64,000 bases of DNA, taken from contig LADS01000031.1 of assembly GCA_000961725.1 (NCBI GenBank), forward strand, positions 1 to 64,000, written 5' to 3'. A program made the position numbers and the translations under genes. The DNA is from Desulfobulbaceae bacterium BRH_c16a (GTDB lineage: Bacteria > Desulfobacterota > Desulfobulbia > Desulfobulbales > Desulfocapsaceae). Every line of letters begins with the position of its first letter. Position 1 is the stretch's first letter. Shown piece after piece: positions 473 through 37,736 of this stretch. The notes under the pieces were generated by a model, which saw nothing but the letters and a program-made list of their open reading frames with translations, had not been told where the DNA came from and ran no database searches.

Positions 473-1294
473 TTATTGTTTTGGAAGCCTATAAAATTCA
501 AAATTAGCTGCCGGAGAATAAACCTTACACATTAAAGGTGTCTGCGGTGGTAGGAGTTTTTGAAAATTGTGGGTTTTCTGCCAGGCACTAGTTAAATCTA
601 AATCTATAGAAAATCCAAAATCATAGATTTTTATCAAAAAATCCTCAATACTTTCATGTTGACTAAGAAAGATTGAGGGAAATTCATAAGAAGGGTTAAT
701 AATATTACTTTTTTTGAAAGCTCTCTTAAGGAATGCTTTCCGCCCGACACCTTCTATACCCGAAGCAATAATACAATTAGGTTTCTTTTTTGCGAAATCA
801 TCTATTCGTAATTCAAAGGATGAAATTAATTCATTTCTTCCAACAAAAATATCTTCCCGCTCTTTAAGTCTAGGATGAAAATCCCAACTTAATTCCCGCA
901 TTCGCTGTTTAATTCTTCGAGCAGCAACAGTTGGTCTCAATATTTGCTTTAGATTATATGAGTCTCTCAGCCAATCAGGAATCCTAGGATCTTTGTAATC
1001 AATTGATTTATCAATTATTATTGGATATATCTGCTTAATTTTCCCATTTTCATGTAACTTTTTCGCTTCTATGATTTCACGCTTAACCCATTCTTTGTTT
1101 AATGAGCTGTCAGAAAGAAATAAAACAAATATTCCTGTTTGGTTTAAACCTCTAAGAATTTCATCAAGAGGTGGCATTCCTTCTTCAAAAGATTTTGTGT
1201 CATAAATGATGCTTTCTTTTTCAAGCTTGGATGCTACTATCTCTACATATAATCCCTTATCCTCACTACTATGAGAAAGAAAACACTTGATCAT
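473..1294 (-). pseudogene. TIR-domain protein with start of a STAND/P-loop NTPase module, 3' end replaced, probably by the IS
   Basis: MIKCFLSHSSEDKGLYVE...FVLFLSDSSLNKEWVKREI (TIR with W-x3-E catalytic Glu), then IFVGRNELISSFE...IIASGIEGVGRKAFLKRA (P-loop-like); the last ~40 aa have no domain character. Confidence 0.75.
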
Positions 1295-4535: not shown

Positions 4536-6173
4536 ATGGAAAACGCATGCATGCAGGACACAGAATCTATCAGAAGTCAGGTGGACCAACGGGTATTGCA
4601 GGAAAGAGCCCAGCGGGTAAACGGGAAAAAAGAACCGCCGACGGATGAGATTACGTCGGAATTCGTCATGGAGTGCCTGCAGTCCGAGCAGCTCGGCGAC
4701 GGCATCCTGTATGCCGCCTTACACAAGGGCAAAATCGTCTACGCCAAGAATTCCGCGCAGTGGTTTGTTTGGGATCGGCACACCTGGCGGCGGGACGATC
4801 TGGATAAGGCGGTCTCCTCGGTCGAAGCGGTGGCCCAGAGGTATGCGGCCGAAATTCCCTTGCTCCAGGAGAAGATCACCAAGGCGGTGAAGACCGGGGA
4901 CAATGATCACATCAAGCAGGTGAGCGCCGCAGTCAACAAGCAGATCGAAAAGATCGCCTCGCGGATCCGCGGCCTGCGCAAGGACACCGGCCGGAGCAAC
5001 TGCCTTAAATTCGCCCATACCAATCCGGTGAACCAGCTGGCGATCGCCGGCACCGAGTTCGATCTCAATCCGTGGCTGCTCGGCTGCCAGAACGGCGTCA
5101 TTAATCTGGTCACCGGCGAAGTGGAAGACGGCAGGCCGGAAGATTACGTGTTGAAGCGGTGCGGGGTCGAGTACCTGGGCCTCGACGTCGACCAGTCTCT
5201 CTGGGAGGATACCCTCAGGCAGATTTACAACAACGACGAAGACATGATCGCCTTTATGCAGCGGTTGTTCGGCTATGGGATCACCGGCATCGTCAGCGAG
5301 CACGTCTTTCCTGTCCTGATCGGCCGGGGCCGGAATGGCAAATCAATAATGGTCGAGGCCATCACCCATGTCATGGGCGATTACGCAAGTGTCGTTCCGC
5401 CGGAGCTGCTCCTCGACAGCAACCGGCCGAACAATGCCAACCAGTCGAACCCGGAACTCATGGCCCTGAAGGGCCTGCGGATCGCCATCGCCTCAGAGAC
5501 TGATGAAGGGAGGAAGTTTTCAGCATCGACCGTCAAACGATTGACCGGCGGTGATACCATCACCGCCCGCGGACTGTATGACAAACACCCGACCAAGTTC
5601 AAGCCGACTCATCTCCTTCTGCTCTTGACCAACCATGAACCGGGGGCACCTGTCGGCGACATGGCCTTTTGGGAAAGATGCTTTCTGATACGCCACCTGA
5701 TCAGCTTCGTAAACCGGGATCCGGCCACCGAAAACGAACGAAAAGCTGATACCCTGCTGCCGGAAAAACTACGACAGATTGGCCCGGCGATTCTGGCCTG
5801 GCTGGTTAAAGGCTGCCTGAAATGGCAGGAAGCAAAGCTCCTGCATCCGCCGGAATCGGTGAAGAAGTCGACGGAGGAATACCGCAAGGAAGAAGACTAT
5901 ATCGGTCAGTTCCTCGAAACCGCCTGTCTCCGCCAGTCAGGGGCCAGGGTTAACGCCACCGACCTCTATATTGCCTTTACCCTATGGTACCAGCAGACCG
6001 TTAACAAGAAGGAAAGGTTCACGCCGTCACAGAAGATGTTCGGCACCAAACTGAAGGCAAGAGAGGAATTCGGGGTGACCGTCTCGAACGGCCGGACCTT
6101 CTATCATGACCTTGACCTGACGGCCGAATATCACGCGAAAATCCTTGCTGCGGCAGGGCTTACGGAGGATTAG
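4536..6173 (+). CDS. D5/P4-type phage DNA helicase (primase C-terminal family)
   Basis: VFPVLIGRGRNGKSIMVEAITHVMGDYA (Walker A), LRIAIASETDEGRKFSASTVKRLTGGDTITARGLY, HLLLLLTNHEP. Confidence 0.9.
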   Translation: MENACMQDTESIRSQVDQRVLQERAQRVNGKKEPPTDEITSEFVMECLQSEQLGDGILYAALHKGKIVYAKNSAQWFVWDRHTWRRDDLDKAVSSVEAVAQRYAAEIPLLQEKITKAVKTGDNDHIKQVSAAVNKQIEKIASRIRGLRKDTGRSNCLKFAHTNPVNQLAIAGTEFDLNPWLLGCQNGVINLVTGEVEDGRPEDYVLKRCGVEYLGLDVDQSLWEDTLRQIYNNDEDMIAFMQRLFGYGITGIVSEHVFPVLIGRGRNGKSIMVEAITHVMGDYASVVPPELLLDSNRPNNANQSNPELMALKGLRIAIASETDEGRKFSASTVKRLTGGDTITARGLYDKHPTKFKPTHLLLLLTNHEPGAPVGDMAFWERCFLIRHLISFVNRDPATENERKADTLLPEKLRQIGPAILAWLVKGCLKWQEAKLLHPPESVKKSTEEYRKEEDYIGQFLETACLRQSGARVNATDLYIAFTLWYQQTVNKKERFTPSQKMFGTKLKAREEFGVTVSNGRTFYHDLDLTAEYHAKILAAAGLTED

Positions 6174-6323
6174 CGGGATGCTTTCGCCCTGGGGAAGGGG
6201 GGATAAGAGGATTGGTTGACAAAGTTTTAATGTAAGCGGGGTATGGTCGCGCGCGCGTTTTTTTATCTTTTTTTCCTCTCTATCCCCTACGTATAAAAAA
6301 AAGAAAAAAAGAAAAAAGAAAAT

Positions 6324-7772
6324 ATGAATAATTTACTGACGTTGCTCGATAAAAAAGGAATTTCGTGGCGTAGGGCATCAAGTGCCCATGGCGGCGAGTA
6401 TCATTCCGCATGCCCTGGTTGCGGTGACGGTGGGAAGGGGCGGAACTCAGACCGGTTTCATGTCTGGCCCGAGAAAACCAGCGGCAGCGGGAGGACTCCG
6501 GGCCGGTTCTGGTGCCGGCAGTGCGGCAAAAACGGCGATACCATCCAGTTTCTTATCGATTTCGACAGGATGAACTTCCGCGAGGCTTGCGCCTTTTTGG
6601 GGATCCACCTGCCGGACGCCAAAAGCTTTGTTTCTCCGCAAAAGTTTTCCACACCGAAAATTCCGCCCGCTCTCGGGAATACGCACGAACCGAAAATCTA
6701 CGATCCGCCTTCTGCGCTCTGGTCGGAACGGGCCACCGCCTTTCTTGCCGACTGCCATGCCCGGCTGCTTGACCGGCCGGATGCGCTTGACTGGCTGGCC
6801 AAACGGGGGATCGATCTCCAGGCTGTGAAGGATTACCAACTCGGCTACAACGAATCCTCCCAGGGGAAGGACCGATACCGACCGATGTCGAGATGGGGGC
6901 TGGCTGCGGAGAAGAGCGGCAAAAGCAGGGAGAAAAAGCTCTGGCTGCCTCGTGGCTGGGTTATCCCGATGTTTGGATCGGACGGTACCGTTCATCAGCT
7001 GCGGATCCGCCGCCGGGATGAGGACATCGAGACCTTCATGCCGAACATCAAGTACCTGGTGGTCAAAGGTTCGTCGCTCGCCACCATGGTTCTGCATCCG
7101 GAGTCCCTCGCCCATGTCGTGGTGGAATCGGGATTCGACGCGATCCTCATTGCAAGCCGGTTCGAGGGCAAACTGGGAGCGGTGACCACCTGGAACAGTG
7201 CCGCCAAGCCGGACAGCCGGGCAACCGCCATCCTGCAGAAGTCACATTGCATCCTCAATGCTCTTGATTTCGACAAGGCCGGAACGAACGAGCAGGACTG
7301 GTGGATGCGGACCTTCCGACGCAACAAGCGGTGGCCGGTACCGGTGGCCAAGGATCCCGGCGAGGCCTTCGGCAAAGGTGTGGACATTCGCTCGTGGATC
7401 CTCAGTGGACTGCCTGTAGGTCTTGCCAGACGGATGGACAGCAAGCCGGAGAATGAGATCAAGGCAGAAGGGACCGAACAGATACAGCCGGAAAAAACTC
7501 CTGAAGCCTCCGAACCTGTTGAAGCGGAAGTCCAGCACCGGATCCTCACCCTGGCCGATGGCCGGGAGTGCCACATCACCGACAGCCGTGAATTGTGGAA
7601 CGAATTAACCGATGCGGGAATGGTTGTTTTCTCGGACTTGGAACTGGAACGCCTGCAGGCGGCCTGCAAGACGATGAGTCAAACGGAACGGGAACAGGCC
7701 GCTCTGTTGACGGTAGACTTCAAGGAAGTTTTTGCCGGGGCGTACATCCGGCGGGGGGAGGCGGTGGCGTGA
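6324..7772 (+). CDS. DNA primase with CHC2 zinc finger and TOPRIM-like region
   Basis: EYHSACPGCGDGGKGRNSDRFHVWPE...RFWCRQCGKNGDTIQFLIDFDRMNFREACAFLGI; HVVVESGFDAILIAS...LNALDFDKAG. Confidence 0.85.
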   Translation: MNNLLTLLDKKGISWRRASSAHGGEYHSACPGCGDGGKGRNSDRFHVWPEKTSGSGRTPGRFWCRQCGKNGDTIQFLIDFDRMNFREACAFLGIHLPDAKSFVSPQKFSTPKIPPALGNTHEPKIYDPPSALWSERATAFLADCHARLLDRPDALDWLAKRGIDLQAVKDYQLGYNESSQGKDRYRPMSRWGLAAEKSGKSREKKLWLPRGWVIPMFGSDGTVHQLRIRRRDEDIETFMPNIKYLVVKGSSLATMVLHPESLAHVVVESGFDAILIASRFEGKLGAVTTWNSAAKPDSRATAILQKSHCILNALDFDKAGTNEQDWWMRTFRRNKRWPVPVAKDPGEAFGKGVDIRSWILSGLPVGLARRMDSKPENEIKAEGTEQIQPEKTPEASEPVEAEVQHRILTLADGRECHITDSRELWNELTDAGMVVFSDLELERLQAACKTMSQTEREQAALLTVDFKEVFAGAYIRRGEAVA

Positions 7773-8923: not shown

Positions 8924-9730
8924 ATGACTCAGGACATGCTGCATAGAATCCTCGATCTAGCCAGCCGTGAAGACAAGGCGGAACTGTCGGTAGCCAACAA
9001 TGGCAAAATCAGCGCGATGCGGGCTTACACCTCCACGCCGGGCAAAAAATCGAAAGAGGACTATGAGGTTGCCTCGGCTTTTTACCAGGAAACCCTGGAC
9101 CGCCTTGCCCTGAAATATCTGCCGGACGAACAGGAGGATCCCGAAAGCGAGGACACTTCCTCCCTGGTGCCGGAATGGCGGGATTTCCGGGAAACCAAAG
9201 TCAAGGCCGATGTGCTCGCCCAGTTGATCGCCATGGGCTATGACCTCACCCAGCGCACCTTTTACCGGCACTGCAAGCAGGGCAAGTGCCGGGTGAATAC
9301 CCTGGGATTCTACTCCCGGCGGCTGGTGAAGCAGTATATCGAGGCCGAGGGCATCATGCGCACCGGCGAACCGGTCGACGCCGATGGGCCTGACATGGCC
9401 CTTTCCGTCGAAAAACAACGGCTTGAAAATGAGAAGCTGCGGATCTCCAATCAACACGCAAACCTCAAGTTCAAAAAGGAACAGGCCCAGCTCATCGAGC
9501 GGGAAGCTCTGTACCTGGAGATGGCCGCGCGGGCAGTTGCCCTCGACAACGGCTTTCGCCAGATGATCGACATGGAAGCCGCAACCCTCATTGCTGCAGT
9601 GAAGGGAGACTCTTCCCGGCTGGCGGAGTTCCTTGATCTGATCAACCAGATCTGGAACGGCCTGCTCAACACCTTCGCCGCCACCGATGAATTCGAAGTG
9701 CTCTTTGAAGACGAGGAAATACCGCAATGA
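8924..9730 (+). CDS. Putative small terminase/packaging protein
   Basis: Directly upstream of and overlapping terL; DLTQRTFYRHCKQGKCRVNTLGFYSRRLVKQYIEAEG HTH-like segment. Confidence 0.55.
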   Translation: MTQDMLHRILDLASREDKAELSVANNGKISAMRAYTSTPGKKSKEDYEVASAFYQETLDRLALKYLPDEQEDPESEDTSSLVPEWRDFRETKVKADVLAQLIAMGYDLTQRTFYRHCKQGKCRVNTLGFYSRRLVKQYIEAEGIMRTGEPVDADGPDMALSVEKQRLENEKLRISNQHANLKFKKEQAQLIEREALYLEMAARAVALDNGFRQMIDMEAATLIAAVKGDSSRLAEFLDLINQIWNGLLNTFAATDEFEVLFEDEEIPQ

Positions 9731-11736
9731 TACTGCAATCCCAGGAACCAGGAAAAATCCGGAGATGCCGCGGATCACTCCGGAAAATTATCGGCAACGG
9801 CAATCAGGTGGAACACCTGCTGCACAACTCCACTTATCGTTTCCGCTTTTCGCCGGCCGAACGCCAGGTGCTCCGCCGGCGGGAAAAGATCATGCCTTCC
9901 AAGTGGGCGCCGGTCAGCATGAAGGTCCCGGCCGGTCCGTTCGAAGACAGCTTCTTCAACCTGGACATCACACCGCACCTGGCCGGGATGCTCGACGCTT
10001 ACGCCCTGCCCTTCGTCCGCAAGATCGGCGTCTGTGCCGCTCCGCAAACAACCAAGACAACTTTCGGCCTTATTGCTCTTGCCTGGTCCTCGGTTTTTGA
10101 GCCGGGACCGGCATTGTATGTCTATCCGACGGAAACCTCCGGGGTCGAGATCATGGAAGAGCGGATCCAGCGGTCCTACAGACAGTCGCCCCAGCTCAAG
10201 CGATTGATGACCGGCCGCAAGGACGACGTCTCCAAACACAAGCTGCGGCTGCGCACCATGTACCACCGGGTCGCCTGGGCCGGATCGCTCACTTCGCTTG
10301 CTCATCGATCAATCAAGTACCTGCTGCTCGACGAGGTCGACAAATACAACGAACGGCCGAGTGAAACAGAAGCCAGTACCATCGATCTGGCCAAACTCAG
10401 GACCCGCTCCTACCGAAACCGGAAAATCCTGGTCATGGCCTCCGCCTCGACTGAGAACGGTTTCATCTGGACCGAAATCACCAAGGAAACTCAGGCTGTT
10501 TTCGTTTACTGGGCGATCTGCCCGTATTGCCTGACTGAGCAGCTCATGGAGTTCACCAGCGACACCTTCTGGTGGCCAAAGGGCGAAGACGGCCATTCGC
10601 TTGACCGCAAGGAGATCGAAGCTAAGAAGCTGGCCCGTTATATCTGCCGGGAATCTTCCTGCCGCAGGATGTGGGACGACGATGCCCGCCATACCGCCAA
10701 CAAGCTGGCGATGAAAAGCGGCTGGCGGTTACGGATGGAGAATGGCGGCAAAGGTGAGGAGCTGTTTCATTACCTCAACAGGGTGCGGCCGCAGTCGATC
10801 GGCTTTATCGTCCCTTCCTGGACCTCTTATTTTGTCTCGCTTTCCGAGGTGGCCAGTGCCTATCTCAAATGCAAGGACAAGAGCCTGAGTCCCGAGGAAC
10901 AATTCAACGCCTATCAGGATTTCCAGAACGCTCACCGCTCCCTGCCATGGAAAGTTGAGCTGCAGGCTCAGCCGGTCGACAAGATCCTTTCTTTCCGCGA
11001 TGACCGCCCGGCAGGGACTTTACCCGGTGGCGAACGGGTGGCTTCGCTCCTGACGGCGATCGATACCCAGGACAACGATCTGTTCTATCTCTCCATCTGG
11101 GCGGTCGGCTGGGGATTCAAAAACGAGCAGTGGCTGGTCCTGGCCCGGCCGCTCAATTCCTTCGAGGCCATCGCCGAGACTCTTTGGGGATCGGAATATT
11201 ACGATGCTGACGGCCAGCGGCATATCATCGAACATGCTTTCATCGACATGCTGGGCCACCGGACAAGGGAGGTTCTTGAATTCTGCATCCAGTATGAAGG
11301 GCTGATCACTCCGGTGTTCGGCTCAGCCCGGGTGATGACCCAGCCTTATGCCTTCAGCCAGCGGGAATACATGCCGGGTACTGATCAACCGCTCCCGGGC
11401 GGCGGGATCCGGGCCATCCGCATGAACACCAGGTATTACAAAGACAATATGGCCATCAAACTCTCGCTTGAGCCAGACACTCCCGGCTGTATTCATCTTT
11501 ATCGGGATGCGGGAGAGGAATATTGCAAGCAGCTCATTTCCGAAGCCCGGGATGAAAAGGGCAACTGGATGAAGATCGGTAGCCGGGCAAATCACTACTG
11601 GGACAACTGGTGCGCCATCAACTGCCTAGCCGATTATCTCGGGATCAAACACCGGATCAATCCCGCCGATCAGGGCGACATCGAAATCGAAGACGAAAGC
11701 ATCATTGTGGTAGATTCACAATTCATGGGAGGCTGA
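9727..11736 (+). CDS. Phage terminase large subunit, GpA family
   Basis: RREKIMPSKWAPVSMKVPAGPFEDSFFNLDITPHLAGMLDAY...VYPTETSGVEIMEERIQ...YLLLDEVDKY...VASLLTAIDTQDNDLFYLSIWAVGWG. Confidence 0.9.
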   Translation: MILQSQEPGKIRRCRGSLRKIIGNGNQVEHLLHNSTYRFRFSPAERQVLRRREKIMPSKWAPVSMKVPAGPFEDSFFNLDITPHLAGMLDAYALPFVRKIGVCAAPQTTKTTFGLIALAWSSVFEPGPALYVYPTETSGVEIMEERIQRSYRQSPQLKRLMTGRKDDVSKHKLRLRTMYHRVAWAGSLTSLAHRSIKYLLLDEVDKYNERPSETEASTIDLAKLRTRSYRNRKILVMASASTENGFIWTEITKETQAVFVYWAICPYCLTEQLMEFTSDTFWWPKGEDGHSLDRKEIEAKKLARYICRESSCRRMWDDDARHTANKLAMKSGWRLRMENGGKGEELFHYLNRVRPQSIGFIVPSWTSYFVSLSEVASAYLKCKDKSLSPEEQFNAYQDFQNAHRSLPWKVELQAQPVDKILSFRDDRPAGTLPGGERVASLLTAIDTQDNDLFYLSIWAVGWGFKNEQWLVLARPLNSFEAIAETLWGSEYYDADGQRHIIEHAFIDMLGHRTREVLEFCIQYEGLITPVFGSARVMTQPYAFSQREYMPGTDQPLPGGGIRAIRMNTRYYKDNMAIKLSLEPDTPGCIHLYRDAGEEYCKQLISEARDEKGNWMKIGSRANHYWDNWCAINCLADYLGIKHRINPADQGDIEIEDESIIVVDSQFMGG

Positions 11737-11738
11737 GC

Positions 11739-11939
11739 ATGAAACAAAGCGGAAAAATACTCGTGACTCTGGAAGAAATAGCCGCCTATTCCGGCCGGAG
11801 CAAGAACACCATCCTGAAATGGGTCGAGGATGACAACTTCCCGGCAACCAAGGTCGACGGCCGGTGGGAATCAAACACGGATTTGGTCGACAACTGGCAG
11901 CGGCGCCGGATTGAGACGATGACTATGCTCACGATTTAG
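11739..11939 (+). CDS. Small MerR/excisionase-type HTH protein
   Basis: ILVTLEEIAAYSGRSKNTILKWVEDDNFPATKVDGRWESNTDLVDNW. Confidence 0.6.
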   Translation: MKQSGKILVTLEEIAAYSGRSKNTILKWVEDDNFPATKVDGRWESNTDLVDNWQRRRIETMTMLTI

Positions 11940-12139
11940 GCCTGATTATCACCAGCCCCTATCATTATTTGGATGAACTCCCTCGCGGTGAGGTTTTCAT
12001 GTCTCAAGAGTTGGAAGTGACGGATTTACCAAAGAGACTGAAAGGAAAATGCAGAGAAAATGACATTTATCATAAATGGAAAAGCAAAATGGCACCAGCA
12101 AGTCCTCTGGGGGCTGTGTGGTCGACATTCGATCTTTCA

Positions 12140-15007
12140 TTACTTGCGAACAACACCACTCAAAGCAGTTATAAAAACGGATGTGACAATCCAACCGCAG
12201 ATAATGACAAACCAGCGGAAAACGCACAATATCCAGCCCCACAAACTAAACTTTCCACTGCATTCATCTCCATTTTCAACCTGTGGATAAGCGGTTGGCA
12301 ACCAGTAAGCAGCTGTCTGAAAATCGACAATGGGTAAAAAAGTATCTAAAGAATAAAAAAAATAGTAGAAACCTGATGTGTCTGTAATTCTTCTGTTAGG
12401 TTTACATTTCCTGCCCAAGAAGTTCGCCACCTGAACTGTTTGAACTTGCTCTGGTTCCGATAGGTTAGCTACCTGATACCCTCCTTTATACTCACTTGGC
12501 ACCATAAGATCAAAGTGGAATCCAGAGTAAAATATGAAAGAACCAAACAAAACAATAAACAATCCAATCACAGCTGCCCGAAAAGGTTTGTATCCATATC
12601 CAACGAGAAAATTGTGCCACCAAGCTAGCTTCTTTCTTAATTTTGGACCTACTTTTTTCATTATGAAGTTCATCGAGTTGTTACCACTCTGATGATTATG
12701 TTTTTTTATAAGAACCAATTTAGCCTCCTCTAAGTGACCACTCCGCTTGAGCACTTTGGCGAGTTGCTCGTAAGGCTGTGTCCGGAAATCCTTAGATAAA
12801 GACAACCATTTCTCTCTACGTTTTTCTAATTCTTCTGGGCCTTGATCTCTTATGAACTGGTACTCAAAATCGTTAATTTGGAGGTTATTCTGTTTAGGCC
12901 AACTATCAATATCGTCAACCAAGACCTCGACTTTTGCCGCATCAAGGAAAAGTGAAACTTTTTGCGAATCTTTGACACCTTTCCAATAAAAATTTCTTCC
13001 TATAACAGCCCCTTGAAAGGAAACTGCACCATCAACTTTAAAATCCTTAAACCAAACACTTCCCTCCGTCTTTAGCCCAATCGCCCGAAAAGCATAATGA
13101 CGTTCTAATTCTTCATCTGGAGAATCTCTTTTTTTTCGTCTCTCCGTCTTAGATTTATCGTTCAAAAACTCACCTCCTGAACAATCAAGATTTCCTCCAA
13201 TTACAGAAAAATCAATTTTGATCTCGCCATGCGATATCAAGTTCTTAAAAATAATGCTACCTGCAACCTGCATTTGCATTGCTCTCAGGGAGAAATCTCC
13301 TTCGTTTTTAATAGTTCCTGAATTTAGATAAATGTTTCGACCGATTGATGCATCATTGAGCATAACTTCACCCTTGGCAGTAAATCCATCACCGAGATAA
13401 AGACTCCCACCGACATGCAATTTCCCTCCAGTGAACGCATAGACATGATCTCCTTCATGTGTGGGGGTACTGATTTTGCTTTGGTTGCAATTAAGGTAAC
13501 TTCCTATTCGAGTATCACTGATTCTGACACCCCCCTCTGTCTCGATCTCATCCATTTCTACTTTACCACCTATAGACATGTTGCCCGCTTGAATAGAATC
13601 AAAGTATGGGTTTTCAAGAGTGCAAGGTTTTCCTAACTTGAAATGTCCTCCAGTGCAAACAAGATCCATACCTAATTTTGACCCAGTGAGACAAACGAAG
13701 GCATTGGCAAGGAATATATTCCTGTCGAAATCTTCGAGATTTTTTTCTTTAAAGCTACGCAGGAAAACTGACCCACTTATACTCATGCCTTTAGCATTGA
13801 TGGCAAAGACACCCTCATTCAGGAATTTGCTGTTTGTGCAATCAAGGTTTCCACTAATAGTGGCGTGTGAAAGGTTGATGTAACCTTTTCTAGTCTCAAA
13901 TTTTTTAAGATAAAATGTCCCTTGAACCTTTATGCCTTCACAGTAGAGAACAGGGACATTATCATCTGAGCCATTCATCATTCCATTATAAAAACTGATA
14001 TCTGCACCAATTCTGGCACACGGGAATCGTATAATTCCTTCGGCCTCGAATCTGTCACAGAAAAAAGCATTGCCTTTGACGTGCATCCGGTCGCCATAGA
14101 TCGCGTTGGCTCCCTTGTTTTTATACTTCCCTCCAGCAGAATCCAAGTCTCCTTCAATAAGCGCACCTGTCAAGCGAATCTCACCCTCGACATTAATATC
14201 GTTCAATATCATGTTCCTTTTAACATGCATCCCTTCCCCGTTGAAAGCACAGGCATCATGGAATTCTGCTTCCGAATAACAGGTGAGACGTCGACCATTC
14301 GATAGCTCCTTTTGACAACCACTTCTTTTAATAAATTTGCCATTTGTACAGTTAAGATTACCATTGATGGTGCTATCTCCGAGATGCACTCCGCCAAAAG
14401 CGGAGAAACCGTCGCAGAGATAGACACTGCCCTTAATGTAAACTCTCTCAAGAACTAGAGAGTAGCTGTGTAAAGTGCTTTTTCTGCAGTCTCCACAACT
14501 GGTTGTGGTATTAGATCCCCCACAATTGGTTTTCTGTGTGTCAAACTTTTGGTTATTCTGATTATCGAAGCACCCTCTGGTGCAAATGAGATCTCCTTCA
14601 ATTTTTGCTCCCATGAGGCAGACAGATCCAGCCGCTGAGAATTCATCAGCCAGCCGAAAATTACCAAAAACTGTTAAACCGTCAGCGTCTATACTGTCTG
14701 TCTTTGATCCTGATAAATCCAATGCTTTAATAGCAGCATGTCGAAGATCAAGCGTATCAGGAATTGAACATTGGGTGAGAGAAAGGTTGAAGGGGATGTT
14801 GAGTAACCTTAAATCTAGACTACCTTCGATGTTGCTACCGCGAACGCGAATCCCATGTGGTTGAAGGTTGGAGATCAGGTTCGGCTCAGTACATAACTGC
14901 TTGATGAAGCTAGCCCTGACGATGCTTCCAGGTTGAAGATCAGCTATTTCTCCGATAGTCAGGCAACTCCACACTCTCTTTTCTGTTTCAGTCCAAGATT
15001 TACCCAT
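12140..15007 (-). CDS. Large beta-solenoid repeat protein with C-terminal transmembrane segments (phage moron)
   Basis: Recurrent units such as GDRMHVKGNAFFCDRFEAEGIIRFPCARIGADI and ALIEGDLDSAGGKYKNKGANAI; TM stretches FRAAVIGLFIVLFGSFIFYSGF and WILCVFRWFVIICGWIVTSVFITALSG; GGAGG before ATG at 15007. Confidence 0.85.
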   Translation of the reverse strand: MGKSWTETEKRVWSCLTIGEIADLQPGSIVRASFIKQLCTEPNLISNLQPHGIRVRGSNIEGSLDLRLLNIPFNLSLTQCSIPDTLDLRHAAIKALDLSGSKTDSIDADGLTVFGNFRLADEFSAAGSVCLMGAKIEGDLICTRGCFDNQNNQKFDTQKTNCGGSNTTTSCGDCRKSTLHSYSLVLERVYIKGSVYLCDGFSAFGGVHLGDSTINGNLNCTNGKFIKRSGCQKELSNGRRLTCYSEAEFHDACAFNGEGMHVKRNMILNDINVEGEIRLTGALIEGDLDSAGGKYKNKGANAIYGDRMHVKGNAFFCDRFEAEGIIRFPCARIGADISFYNGMMNGSDDNVPVLYCEGIKVQGTFYLKKFETRKGYINLSHATISGNLDCTNSKFLNEGVFAINAKGMSISGSVFLRSFKEKNLEDFDRNIFLANAFVCLTGSKLGMDLVCTGGHFKLGKPCTLENPYFDSIQAGNMSIGGKVEMDEIETEGGVRISDTRIGSYLNCNQSKISTPTHEGDHVYAFTGGKLHVGGSLYLGDGFTAKGEVMLNDASIGRNIYLNSGTIKNEGDFSLRAMQMQVAGSIIFKNLISHGEIKIDFSVIGGNLDCSGGEFLNDKSKTERRKKRDSPDEELERHYAFRAIGLKTEGSVWFKDFKVDGAVSFQGAVIGRNFYWKGVKDSQKVSLFLDAAKVEVLVDDIDSWPKQNNLQINDFEYQFIRDQGPEELEKRREKWLSLSKDFRTQPYEQLAKVLKRSGHLEEAKLVLIKKHNHQSGNNSMNFIMKKVGPKLRKKLAWWHNFLVGYGYKPFRAAVIGLFIVLFGSFIFYSGFHFDLMVPSEYKGGYQVANLSEPEQVQTVQVANFLGRKCKPNRRITDTSGFYYFFYSLDTFLPIVDFQTAAYWLPTAYPQVENGDECSGKFSLWGWILCVFRWFVIICGWIVTSVFITALSGVVRK

Positions 15008-15276
15008 TTGTAACACCTCCGATTTCCTATATTACCTAAGGGAGATAATTTATGAAAAGGAGAAAAGAGCTTATGAAATCCTTGATATTGCGCTCGTCTG
15101 ATTATTAAAATATCTGAATTTTCAAATGGTTAAATAATTTCTATAGAAATAAATCAAAGACAGTCCAGAGTGATTATTTATAATGTATTTCTTGTACATA
15201 TTCTTAATATCTAACAATCATATGCACCATTGTCAATAAACTAGAATCCGCGCTTTCAGGATTTTAAATCGCTACC

Positions 15277-15309
15277 CAGTTTCGTTTCCACCTCAAACGA
15301 AACCCCTGT
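15277..15309. repeat. Inverted repeat GTTTCGTTT-N7-AAACGAAAC
   Basis: Read directly; similar element near the integrase (37556..37587). Confidence 0.7.
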
Positions 15310-15333
15310 CAAGCATTAAAACACCACTTGGAC

Positions 15334-15363
15334 GGTCATAGAAGGTCATACGTGATCATAGAA
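15334..15363. repeat. Three 10-bp-spaced direct repeats (GGTCATAGAA GGTCATACGT GATCATAGAA)
   Basis: Read directly in the intergenic region before the head operon. Confidence 0.75.
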
Positions 15364-15389
15364 GAAAATCCCCAAAAACAGGGTGTACA

Positions 15390-15419
15390 GTCATGAAAAA
15401 TAATTCTGTTTTTCATGAC
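15390..15419. promoter_or_regulatory. Perfect 11-bp inverted repeat GTCATGAAAAA-N8-TTTTTCATGAC directly before the gpW-like gene
   Basis: Read directly. Confidence 0.75.
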
Positions 15420-15429
15420 GGAGGCACCA

Positions 15430-15660
15430 GTGGCATTCACCCAGGCCGATCTTACCAACATAGAACAAGCAATCATTGAGCTCGCCACCAACAAGCGGCC
15501 GGTTAAATTTGTCATCGACGGCAACGTTGTCCAATATTCGCCGATCGAGCTGCCTCAGCTCCGTGCCTTGCGCAACGAGATCGCCGCCGAACTCTCCGCC
15601 GCGGATCCAGCCTCTAATGTCATCTTTGCCTTCAGGATTCATGGAGGCAAGGGATTATGA
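15430..15660 (+). CDS. gpW-like head-tail joining protein
   Basis: FTQADLTNIEQAIIELATNKRPVKFVIDGNVVQYSPIELPQLRALRNEIAAEL; GTG start after GGAGG; precedes portal. Confidence 0.75.
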   Translation: MAFTQADLTNIEQAIIELATNKRPVKFVIDGNVVQYSPIELPQLRALRNEIAAELSAADPASNVIFAFRIHGGKGL

Positions 15661-17174
15661 ACTTTCCTCCCGGCACCATCCTTGACCGAACCGGCTTACC
15701 TCTTCCCTCGGCCGGGCTTGCCGCTTCGCCGCTGTACGAAGGAGCATCGACCGCCGATCGTATTGGAGACTGGGGACTTTCTTCGGCCGGACCGAACGCT
15801 GCCGCTTTCCGGAACCTCACCGCCCTGCGCAAAAGAAGCCGGGATTTCGAACGGAACAATCCCACCGCTAAAGGCGGCATTGATTCCTTTGTCGCCAACC
15901 TGGTCGGAACCGACATCTCACCCAGCTGGAACCTAGACAACCAGGATCAGAAGGACGAACTCCAGCAGCTCTGGGACGACAGCCAGCTCGAGGCGGACTT
16001 CTACGGGATCTCCGATTTCTATGGTACCCAGGAAATCGCCTGCCGTTCCGTGGTCCGGGACGGTGAAGTACTCGGCCGGTTTCACGATGTGGATCCAGAT
16101 TTCGGCCTGATTGTCCCCCTGCAGGTGCAACTCCTGGAATCAGACCACCTTGATGCCGGATATAATGACATCAGCCCGGAAGGCAACGAGATCCGCTTCG
16201 GGATCGAATGGCGGAAAGGCCGGCGTTACAAGTACTGGCTGTATGCCGACCATCCCGGAGAAACATTTCTCACCTCTTCCGACCTCAGCCGGATCGCGGT
16301 CGACGCAAGCGATATCGCCCATGTCTTCAGACCGCTTCGCGCCGGACAAGCCCGCGGCGTAAGCTGGCTGGCCCCGATCATCGTCAAGCTGCATGAGATC
16401 GATGTCTACGACGATGCGGAAGTGGTCCGCAAAAAAGCGTCTGCCCTCTGGGGCGGGTTCATCTATTCGGACAATCCGATCACCGACCGGACGATGGGCG
16501 GCAAGCCTCTATCACGTGAGAACGGCGTCCAGTCGATGCGGCTGGAACCTGGCACCTTCCCTGTCCTGCGCAACGGCCAGAAGGTGGCGTTCACAGAGAC
16601 CGCCGATGTCGGCAACAATTACCTCGACTTCATGAAGCTGCAGTTCCGGATCATCGCCCGCGGCCTCGGCATCACTTATGAGCAGCTCACCGGCGACCTG
16701 GCTGGGGTCACTTACACCTCACTCCGGGCCGGCCTCATCGAGTTCCGCCGACTCTGCGAAACCATCATCGCCAGGACCCTCGTCTTCCAGTACTGCCGCC
16801 CCTACATCAACCGGTGGATCAAGACGGCAGTCCTTAACGGTGCGACAAAAACCATTTCTGTTTCCCACTACCTGAAAAACCCGCGACTCTTTCACCGGGT
16901 CGACTGGCATCTCGACGGCTGGGACTTCACTGATCCGGTCAAGGACCGGGTGGCAGAACTGATGGATATCAGAAACGGCATCGAAACACGAGGCCAGAAG
17001 ATCGCCAAACGCGGCGGCAATATTGATCGGGTAGACAGGCAGAACCAGGCCGAACAGAAAAAGGCCGCTGAACGAGGCCTGATCTACGACTGCTATCCAT
17101 CCCAGACTACCCAGTCAGGAACCCTGCAAAAGGTCGAGGAACAGATCGTCATCGACTCTGCCAAAACTCAATAG
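15657..17174 (+). CDS. Phage portal protein, lambda family
   Basis: LTALRKRSRDFERNNPTAKGGIDSFVANLVGTDISPSW...ITYEQLTGDLAGVTYTSLRAGLIEFRR. Confidence 0.9.
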   Translation: MNFPPGTILDRTGLPLPSAGLAASPLYEGASTADRIGDWGLSSAGPNAAAFRNLTALRKRSRDFERNNPTAKGGIDSFVANLVGTDISPSWNLDNQDQKDELQQLWDDSQLEADFYGISDFYGTQEIACRSVVRDGEVLGRFHDVDPDFGLIVPLQVQLLESDHLDAGYNDISPEGNEIRFGIEWRKGRRYKYWLYADHPGETFLTSSDLSRIAVDASDIAHVFRPLRAGQARGVSWLAPIIVKLHEIDVYDDAEVVRKKASALWGGFIYSDNPITDRTMGGKPLSRENGVQSMRLEPGTFPVLRNGQKVAFTETADVGNNYLDFMKLQFRIIARGLGITYEQLTGDLAGVTYTSLRAGLIEFRRLCETIIARTLVFQYCRPYINRWIKTAVLNGATKTISVSHYLKNPRLFHRVDWHLDGWDFTDPVKDRVAELMDIRNGIETRGQKIAKRGGNIDRVDRQNQAEQKKAAERGLIYDCYPSQTTQSGTLQKVEEQIVIDSAKTQ

Positions 17175-36220: not shown

Positions 36221-37447
36221 TCACACGGTCGAATAGGTCGATATTTCTCTGATAACCTTATTCAATTCCTCATCCAGTCCATTGCTGCCGATAATCTTGA
36301 TCGCTTCCGCCAAGAGCTCCCGCAACGCCTTTCTTTCCTCCGATACTTCTTTTTGAATATCAACACCGTACCCCTCGATACGCTGCATCATCTCCGCCTT
36401 GTGCTCCATTGAGGGGTGGGTATAACGCATTGTCATCTGGATAGTCTTATGTCCGAGGATATCTGCCACCGTGCGTAGAGGGACTTCTTGTTCAATCAGG
36501 TAAGTGGCGGCAGAATGGCGAATATCATGAAGAGTAAGGTCTGCAGGAATGGAAGGATTGACAGCTATAGCCCTGCGTTTGGTCGCCTCCCAACTCTCGC
36601 GAAAGATCTGGGCCGGCCGATTCATTATATTGGACCTGCTTAAGTCCTTATCCTTCAGAAAGAAAAAGTTATCTGTATCAATGTTCCTTAAAGCGGCTGT
36701 GGCGGCATCCGTAAGCGATACGGTCCTTGGTGTTTTGGATTTCGTCTTCTTGATAATGATCGTCTGATTGTTCAGATTCACATCTCTCTTCCGCAAACCT
36801 GCCGCCTCGCTTGCTCTCATGCCGGTATGCATGAGTACAAGGAGGTAGGCCGGGAAAAGAGCATTCCTGGCTTTCCTGCTTTCCGTAATAATGACCCGAG
36901 CCTGCAGGTCAGTGAGAGCGAGGATACGTCCTGCCGCAGGTCTCGGCCGTGCCAGACGCTCTATCGGATTTGATACCGGCAATTCCCATTCCTGCATTGC
37001 AATGGTGAAAAGATGTGAAATCAATGAGAGCTCCTGGCGGACTGTGGACCCCGATCGTTTATCATCCCTCAATCGGCGGTCTCGAAACTCCGACATCACT
37101 CTCGGTGTGATTTCGGCAAGCGAAATATCCCTGCCGAGATATCTTTTTAATATGATCGCGCAAGTTCGCTTACGTTCAACAGTCGTTGGCTCATTGAAAT
37201 TTGGCCCAGGAGACTCTATGGTTCTGAAGTATTTGTTCAGTGCCTGCTCAAGAGTTACCATTTCAGCGAGTCGCGGATCCTGATGACGTTTCATGTCGAT
37301 CAAGTGCTCCTGCTCTCTGGCCCATACTTCAGCATCTTTCTTCAGAGCAAAGGTGCGAGTAATTGGTTTATTGCGGTATCTTCCTTTCCGGATGATTGCC
37401 TGGTATGATGTTTTATTATTTTTCTGCTTCTTTAAAATTGTTGCCAT
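36221..37447 (-). CDS. Tyrosine recombinase/phage integrase
   Basis: HTGMRASEAAGL...LHDIRHSAATYLIEQ...LGHKTIQMTMRYTHPS; adjacent to tRNA-Leu. Confidence 0.95.
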   Translation of the reverse strand: MATILKKQKNNKTSYQAIIRKGRYRNKPITRTFALKKDAEVWAREQEHLIDMKRHQDPRLAEMVTLEQALNKYFRTIESPGPNFNEPTTVERKRTCAIILKRYLGRDISLAEITPRVMSEFRDRRLRDDKRSGSTVRQELSLISHLFTIAMQEWELPVSNPIERLARPRPAAGRILALTDLQARVIITESRKARNALFPAYLLVLMHTGMRASEAAGLRKRDVNLNNQTIIIKKTKSKTPRTVSLTDAATAALRNIDTDNFFFLKDKDLSRSNIMNRPAQIFRESWEATKRRAIAVNPSIPADLTLHDIRHSAATYLIEQEVPLRTVADILGHKTIQMTMRYTHPSMEHKAEMMQRIEGYGVDIQKEVSEERKALRELLAEAIKIIGSNGLDEELNKVIREISTYSTV

Positions 37448-37649: not shown

Positions 37650-37736
37650 TGGTGCCGGAGGTCGGAATCGAACCGACATGACCTTGCGGTCGCGGGATTT
37701 TGAGTCCCGTGCGTCTACCAGTTTCACCACTCCGGC
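37650..37736 (-). tRNA. tRNA-Leu (CAA)
   Basis: Minus strand GCCGGAGTGGTGAAACTGGTAGACGCACGGGACTCAAAATCCCGCGACCGCAAGGTCATGTCGGTTCGATTCCGACCTCCGGCACCA; anticodon loop CTCAAAA. Confidence 0.95.

Follow-up and report, generated by a model that had tools for sequence, protein, structure and literature searches.

Prophage slots of ~1–5 kb between conserved genes, which in P2-like phages adjoin the portal, have been proven to store antiviral genes (PMC9122126). PADLOC also lists defence proteins that are prophage-borne, encoded by a single gene and equipped with a membrane domain. Among solenoid proteins, those built from contiguous pentapeptides fold into a quadrilateral β-helix with about 20 residues per coil, and a solenoid of this kind also precedes the two-TM pore domain (Ion_trans_2) of pentapeptide-repeat K+ channels. 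HglK and bactofilins organise or tether partners at the membrane. HglK is described, in a reference given in PMC8145042, as a membrane pentapeptide protein affecting septal junctions.

Here, we describe P0001, a protein encoded in a 64,000-nucleotide stretch of Desulfobulbaceae bacterium BRH_c16a (contig LADS01000031.1, positions 1 to 64,000; hereafter the window). As in the P2-like and P4-like antiviral cargo hotspots (PMC9122126), its gene occupies a small interval between two conserved phage genes beside the portal, and related prophages hold unrelated cargo at this place, including an OLD-type ATPase. The slot differs from those hotspots in its lambda-type portal, its GpA-type terminase, its Desulfobacterota-like host and its position between terL-HTH and gpW, and any antiviral role is here putative. 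P0001 shares with the single-gene membrane defence proteins its prophage location, its single gene and its membrane domain, but no PADLOC model matches it. It resembles pentapeptide repeat proteins in its predicted solenoid with short strands every 5–7 residues and differs from them in that its repeat is a longer, irregular unit.

The gene and its prophage

The P0001 gene runs antisense between the terL/HTH and gpW/portal genes of a lambda-type prophage located at a tRNA-Leu gene (Table 1). The 955-aa frame reported by the earlier note as opposite to the neighbouring late genes was confirmed by reading the sequence from the ATG at 15007 to the stop at 12140 on the minus strand, and its AT-richness was borne out as well, with a G+C fraction of 0.412 compared with 0.560 in the late genes (0.557 from the replication genes to terL, and about 56% in the prophage overall). 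Full-length homologues in about ten phyla and a strongly conserved C-terminal domain argue that the frame is not a chance one. Sigma-70-like promoter matches for the gene numbered 9 versus 7.6 in shuffled sequences, which is no excess, and no second copy was found in its own genome.

The prophage also encodes a tail tape measure protein, a head protease and a D5-type primase/helicase. On its left side the prophage is truncated, the contig beginning within a transposase fragment, and a search for the left attachment site found no recurring 14-mer of the tRNA-Leu region. Two IMG/VR contigs contain identical copies of the P0001 gene, and the coordinates of one of these contigs match about window 470–37447. 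At the left end, a gene on the minus strand (window 473–1294; 33% G+C), whose end adjoins the transposase fragment, encodes a TIR protein matching residues 1–231 of the 824-position PADLOC TIR-NLR model (1.8e-79). This is probably a truncated second cargo gene.

Table 1. Features of the P0001 locus (positions in the window)
Feature	Coordinates	Strand	Basis
Terminase large subunit (GpA type), terL; left conserved flank	9727..11736	+	PF05876, PF20454; phrog_15; GpA ATPase and nuclease domains
Small HTH/excisionase-like gene, kept near terL in relatives	11739..11939	+	PHROG search; tblastn in L138, L218, L219, L220
Cargo interval, 40.6% G+C, from terL-HTH pair to gpW-portal	11940..15390	.	Comparison with five related prophages
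P0001, 955-aa membrane-anchored β-solenoid protein (predicted); cargo gene	12140..15007	-	ORF and translation; homologues
Predicted TM2, residues 922–954, GW at 938–939	12146..12244	-	Conservation, AlphaFold, hydropathy
Re-entrant-like conserved segment, residues 882–904 (YFFYSLDTFLPIVDFQTAAYWLP), with predicted short helix 882–890	12296..12364	-	Conservation; helix pLDDT about 90
Predicted TM1, residues 808–831, after positively charged GYGYxP motif	12515..12586	-	Conservation, AlphaFold, hydropathy
Conserved helical neck (predicted), residues 724–776 (WL..., QPYEQLA.VL...G...A..V)	12680..12838	-	Conservation over 95 rows; AlphaFold helices
Predicted β-solenoid, about residues 50–715, without preceding signal peptide	12863..14860	-	AlphaFold, most blocks pLDDT >85; hydropathy
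Shine-Dalgarno-like GGAGGTG, 6 nt before the ATG of P0001	15014..15020	-	Read from sequence
gpW-like head-joining gene; right conserved flank	15415..15660	+	Named by position before portal; tblastn in L138, L151, L219, L220, L221
Portal protein, lambda family	15657..17174	+	PF05136, TIGR01539
Tyrosine integrase of the prophage, adjoining tRNA-Leu 37650–37736	36221..37447	-	PF00589; ARAGORN for the tRNA

Turnover of cargo in the terL-gpW slot

Related prophages were located through portal and terL, and five of them, with portals 62–75% identical, were compared at the slot. Both flanks are present in L138, L219 and L220 (G447:C9), and the gpW-portal flank only in L151 (G399:C262) and L221 (G447:C23), giving intervals of 3.4, 6.8, 8.5, at least 2.4 and at least 1.7 kb, respectively. 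All five hold unrelated DNA that is AT-richer than the genes that follow, so that, with the P0001 interval included, six intervals carry unrelated cargo between conserved terL/HTH and/or gpW/portal flanks. Long antisense genes occur in three of the five related slots, and no P0001-family member was detected in any of them. In L220, an OLD/GajA/AriA-type ATPase gene (4830–6575, plus strand) lies antisense in the slot; its product matches GajA at 8.7e-20 as well as solved GajA and AriA chains. The slot of L138 contains a DUF5131 gene (Pfam, 1.6e-72) with a match to the PADLOC candidate-defence model PDC-M41B (2.4e-53). Cargo of known defence type was absent from the remaining three slots (L151, L219 and L221); that of L151 carries a pair of antisense genes (14242–14772 and 14813–15427) whose products have membrane or export segments. 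Further antisense genes, of 413, 272, 207, 138 and 115 aa, accompany the OLD-type ATPase in L220, and an antisense uncharacterised protein is encoded at 236–1102 in L221.

The interval between terL-HTH and gpW-portal is a site of fast turnover, in which the P0001 gene is an accessory single-gene cargo, and it is a slot of a known kind for which we found no description in this phage group. The P0001 gene is almost certainly prophage cargo: its composition and position fit the moron-like character proposed by the earlier note, and the five related prophages hold different cargo at the same place. That the slot is common to OLD/GajA-type and DUF5131 genes supports an accessory, possibly exclusion, role for P0001.

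Predicted architecture of P0001

An AlphaFold model computed with a 50-row alignment (P0001 and 49 homologues) reached a mean pLDDT of 84.8 and a pTM of 0.70, while a single-sequence run gave only pLDDT 39. The model agrees with the earlier description of many irregular repeats forming a β-solenoid followed by a membrane part, with a short strand every 5–7 residues between about residues 50 and 715. Four helices (724–736, 743–755, 759–776 and 788–805) are predicted between the solenoid and TM1, and the hydropathy of the protein peaks at 800–837 and 918–955. Hence, the membrane part, read by the earlier note as several TM segments, contains two clear TM helices and not several; the third element is the short, membrane-like helix 882–890, which lies inside the phrase that the note had quoted as pore-like. 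The loop between TM1 and this helix is poorly predicted. Over 95 aligned rows, conservation reaches 92% for Y885, 87% for D888, 98% for P892, 96% for W902 and 100% for G938; the short-helix segment reads LPIVDF in P0001, and its family form is YSLDxxLPxVDL..YW.P. According to this model, the protein very probably comprises a β-solenoid joined by a helical neck to a two-TM domain that includes a re-entrant-like segment. With the whole model, Foldseek returned only generic solenoids, the Qnr-type matches being weak (E 0.13 and above), and a PDB profile search gave nothing convincing.

The absence of a recognisable enzymatic domain, noted earlier, was upheld by searches of Pfam, NCBIfam, PADLOC and PHROG, and an enzyme was rejected on this ground. 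A phage tail-spike or adhesin was also rejected, as P0001 matches no trimeric tailspike family, ends in two C-terminal TM helices and is encoded antisense to the late genes.

Comparison with pentapeptide-repeat K+ channels

The Pentapeptide_3 model scores 17.4 bits on P0001, against a cut-off of 27, over a single 22-residue stretch; across the family it touches the solenoid in 24 of 50 members at E <0.1 (best 1.3e-12). P0001 and the pentapeptide-repeat K+ channels share the order solenoid, interfacial helix, TM1, short helix with loop, and TM2. Channels of this type are encoded in Desulfobacterota (L172, 1483–2520, minus strand, and L176–L196) and carry TTLGYGD, with DCGRS before TM1. The motif preceding TM1 is DCGRS..RW in the channels and GYGYxP.RA in the P0001 family, the YS-containing segment reads YYSVVTLTTLGYGD in the former and YSLDVFLPIVDL in the latter, and TM2 begins with G[YW] in both. 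P0001 differs in its added helical neck and longer loop. A PF07885 match was found neither in P0001 nor in the 50 members, and a selectivity filter of the TVGYGD/TTVGYGD type is absent from P0001, the segment reading LPIVDF instead. When the C-terminal profile was compared globally with the K+ channels, it scored 14.9 versus 3.8 ± 2.3 for column-shuffled decoys, with 0 of 60 decoys as high, whereas locally 7 of 60 decoys scored as high, which is not significant, and the hhalign probability was <10%. These comparisons are no more than suggestive of a K+-channel-like pore ancestry; P0001 may work like a pore, though they do not establish it as a K+ channel family member.

Membrane orientation

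P0001 lacks a signal peptide, the region before TM1 and the C-terminal tail are positively charged, and the loop is negative in the family. Based on the missing signal peptide and the positive-inside rule, the solenoid is predicted to be cytoplasmic, together with the C-terminus, and the conserved segment to face the periplasm. With a cytoplasmic solenoid, P0001 is unlikely to sense an outer-envelope component directly, contrary to what the earlier note had envisaged. On a simple hydropathy criterion, supplemented by three manual decisions of which one (L043) is weak, 12 of 71 non-Rhizobiales members were scored as having a signal peptide. The TM1–TM2 loop has a net charge of +0.75 in members with a signal peptide and -2.59 in the rest (Mann-Whitney p 5e-5, a test that ignores kinship). 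Members with a signal peptide and a less negative loop include L044, L045, L046, L052, L059, L062, L068, L071 and L088. The charge pattern suggests that the family comprises two opposite membrane orientations, with the solenoid inside in most members and exported in those with a signal peptide.

Distribution and gene neighbourhoods

Scanning of genome contigs with a four-row alignment yielded 126 relatives, of which 80 were kept. Their occurrence is sporadic and extends over about ten phyla, among them Planctomycetota, Cyanobacteriota, Pseudomonadota, Nitrospirota, Nitrospinota, Bacteroidota, Zixibacteria and Verrucomicrobiota. Distant members were found by tblastn on 33 plasmids, mainly of Streptomyces, Rhodococcus and Rhizobiales, and mostly annotated as hypothetical. 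Within its own phylum P0001 has matches in 15 of 395 genomes, and none was found in 14 other species of the same genus; no close relatives were found beyond the identical prophage copies. The deep nodes of the family tree are without resolution, and P0001 sits on a long branch. Outside the prophage copies, no family member was found in 2.9 million viral contigs, scanned with the exact QPYEQLA pattern and one more and returning this prophage only, or in 50,697 phage records.

Conservation is concentrated in the C-terminal 260 residues, with the motifs D..SWP..L.L.GF.Y, WL..Q..F.PQPYEQLA.VL...G...A..V, GYGYxP, YP.F...YSLDxxLPxVDL.Q..YW.P, GW and G..R. Hfq and IPI_T4 matches in a few members were weak and local and were set aside.

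The 143 genes neighbouring diverse homologues are mostly metabolic or regulatory (a raw count without a control set), with some mobile genes and scattered matches to defence models (reverse transcriptase, Cas1, AriA and mads). The Rhizobiales members (L049, L108, L111, L114, L121, L126 and others) keep a conserved position, on the chromosome or a megaplasmid, next to a cation/proton antiporter cluster of the Mrp type and on the strand opposite to it. A counter-example is the member on the Acaryochloris plasmid pMB04, which lies near NB-ARC, TIR, CU044_2847 and caspase-family genes. The idea of a conserved operon partner was dropped, since the same neighbouring genes reappear only inside the Rhizobiales, Roseobacter-like or Desulfovibrio-like groups, and the context does not point to a multi-gene system, P0001 travelling alone. 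The earlier note had held that homologues residing mainly in conserved chromosomal housekeeping contexts would tell against its defence reading; the survey went halfway there, in that homologues are mostly chromosomal and enriched neither in phages nor in defence neighbourhoods. This mainly chromosomal distribution, with no visible association with defence genes, speaks against a family dedicated to defence.

Possible functions

Of the roles considered for P0001, phage exclusion or defence ranks first, though only tentatively. Against it, PADLOC returned no family for the protein and only noise (E 0.02 or worse) for the 50 members, consistent with the earlier statement that it resembles no named defence system, and three of the five related slots carry no cargo of known defence type. 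The evidence counted for defence comprises, besides the slot and its OLD/GajA-type and DUF5131 cargo, the TIR-NLR-type fragment in the same prophage and the patchy presence of the gene in genus and phylum. We hypothesize that P0001 would protect the lysogen from other phages: the solenoid would bind an intracellular trigger, for example a phage product or an altered state of the envelope or of the ions, and the membrane domains, probably oligomeric, would in response perturb the membrane or the flow of ions, whereupon infection might abort or injected DNA fail. The fully specified version, a single-gene exclusion protein combining a cytoplasmic solenoid sensor with a K+-channel-like pore, its filter replaced by LPxVDL, within a two-orientation family, is improbable as a whole. 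A host-fitness cargo conferring lysogenic conversion without an anti-phage role, for instance a protein that many bacteria employ in ion, osmotic or envelope homeostasis, either as an ion channel gated by the solenoid or against membrane stress, is doubtful and yet deserves weight, being in keeping with a mainly chromosomal family that shows no defence pattern around it, with the antiporter genes adjoining the Rhizobiales members, and with an order of parts and a global profile score (above 60 of 60 decoys) that recall the pentapeptide-repeat K+ channels. However, the non-significant local score, the hhalign value below 10% and the absent TTVGYGD filter speak against such a channel, and the patchy presence within genera and the slot common to OLD- and DUF5131-type genes point to conflict and not to housekeeping.

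Exclusion also has to be set against a purely mechanical role, in which the rod would organise or tether partners and the two-TM hairpin would be a mere anchor without a pore. Two family orientations would suit a simple anchor, and solenoids typically serve as binding or polymer surfaces; yet the hairpin and the short-helix segment are among the most conserved parts (P892, W902 and G938), beyond the needs of an anchor, and a conserved partner gene is lacking, making such a scaffold unlikely. The fast turnover of the slot and the restriction of the gene to this one prophage would also suit a neutral passenger without benefit, or a virion structural or lysis component, but the frame is intact over 955 aa and keeps the conserved motifs, it runs antisense to the late operon, and its product is unlike virion or lysis families in the PHROG search, all of which renders this very improbable.

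Because the slot of P0001 is shared with an OLD/GajA-type gene, the function is directly testable, and a solenoid-gated pore, if true, would represent a new design of exclusion effector. The terL-gpW slot is also a place to seek more antiviral genes among phages infecting this host group. The C-terminal membrane domain is strongly conserved across about ten phyla, and none of Pfam, NCBIfam, PADLOC and PHROG models it, leaving members annotated as hypothetical or pentapeptide-like. No published work on the family was found in open-access full text. The Acaryochloris member (L050, 10923–13209) is split over two overlapping frames.
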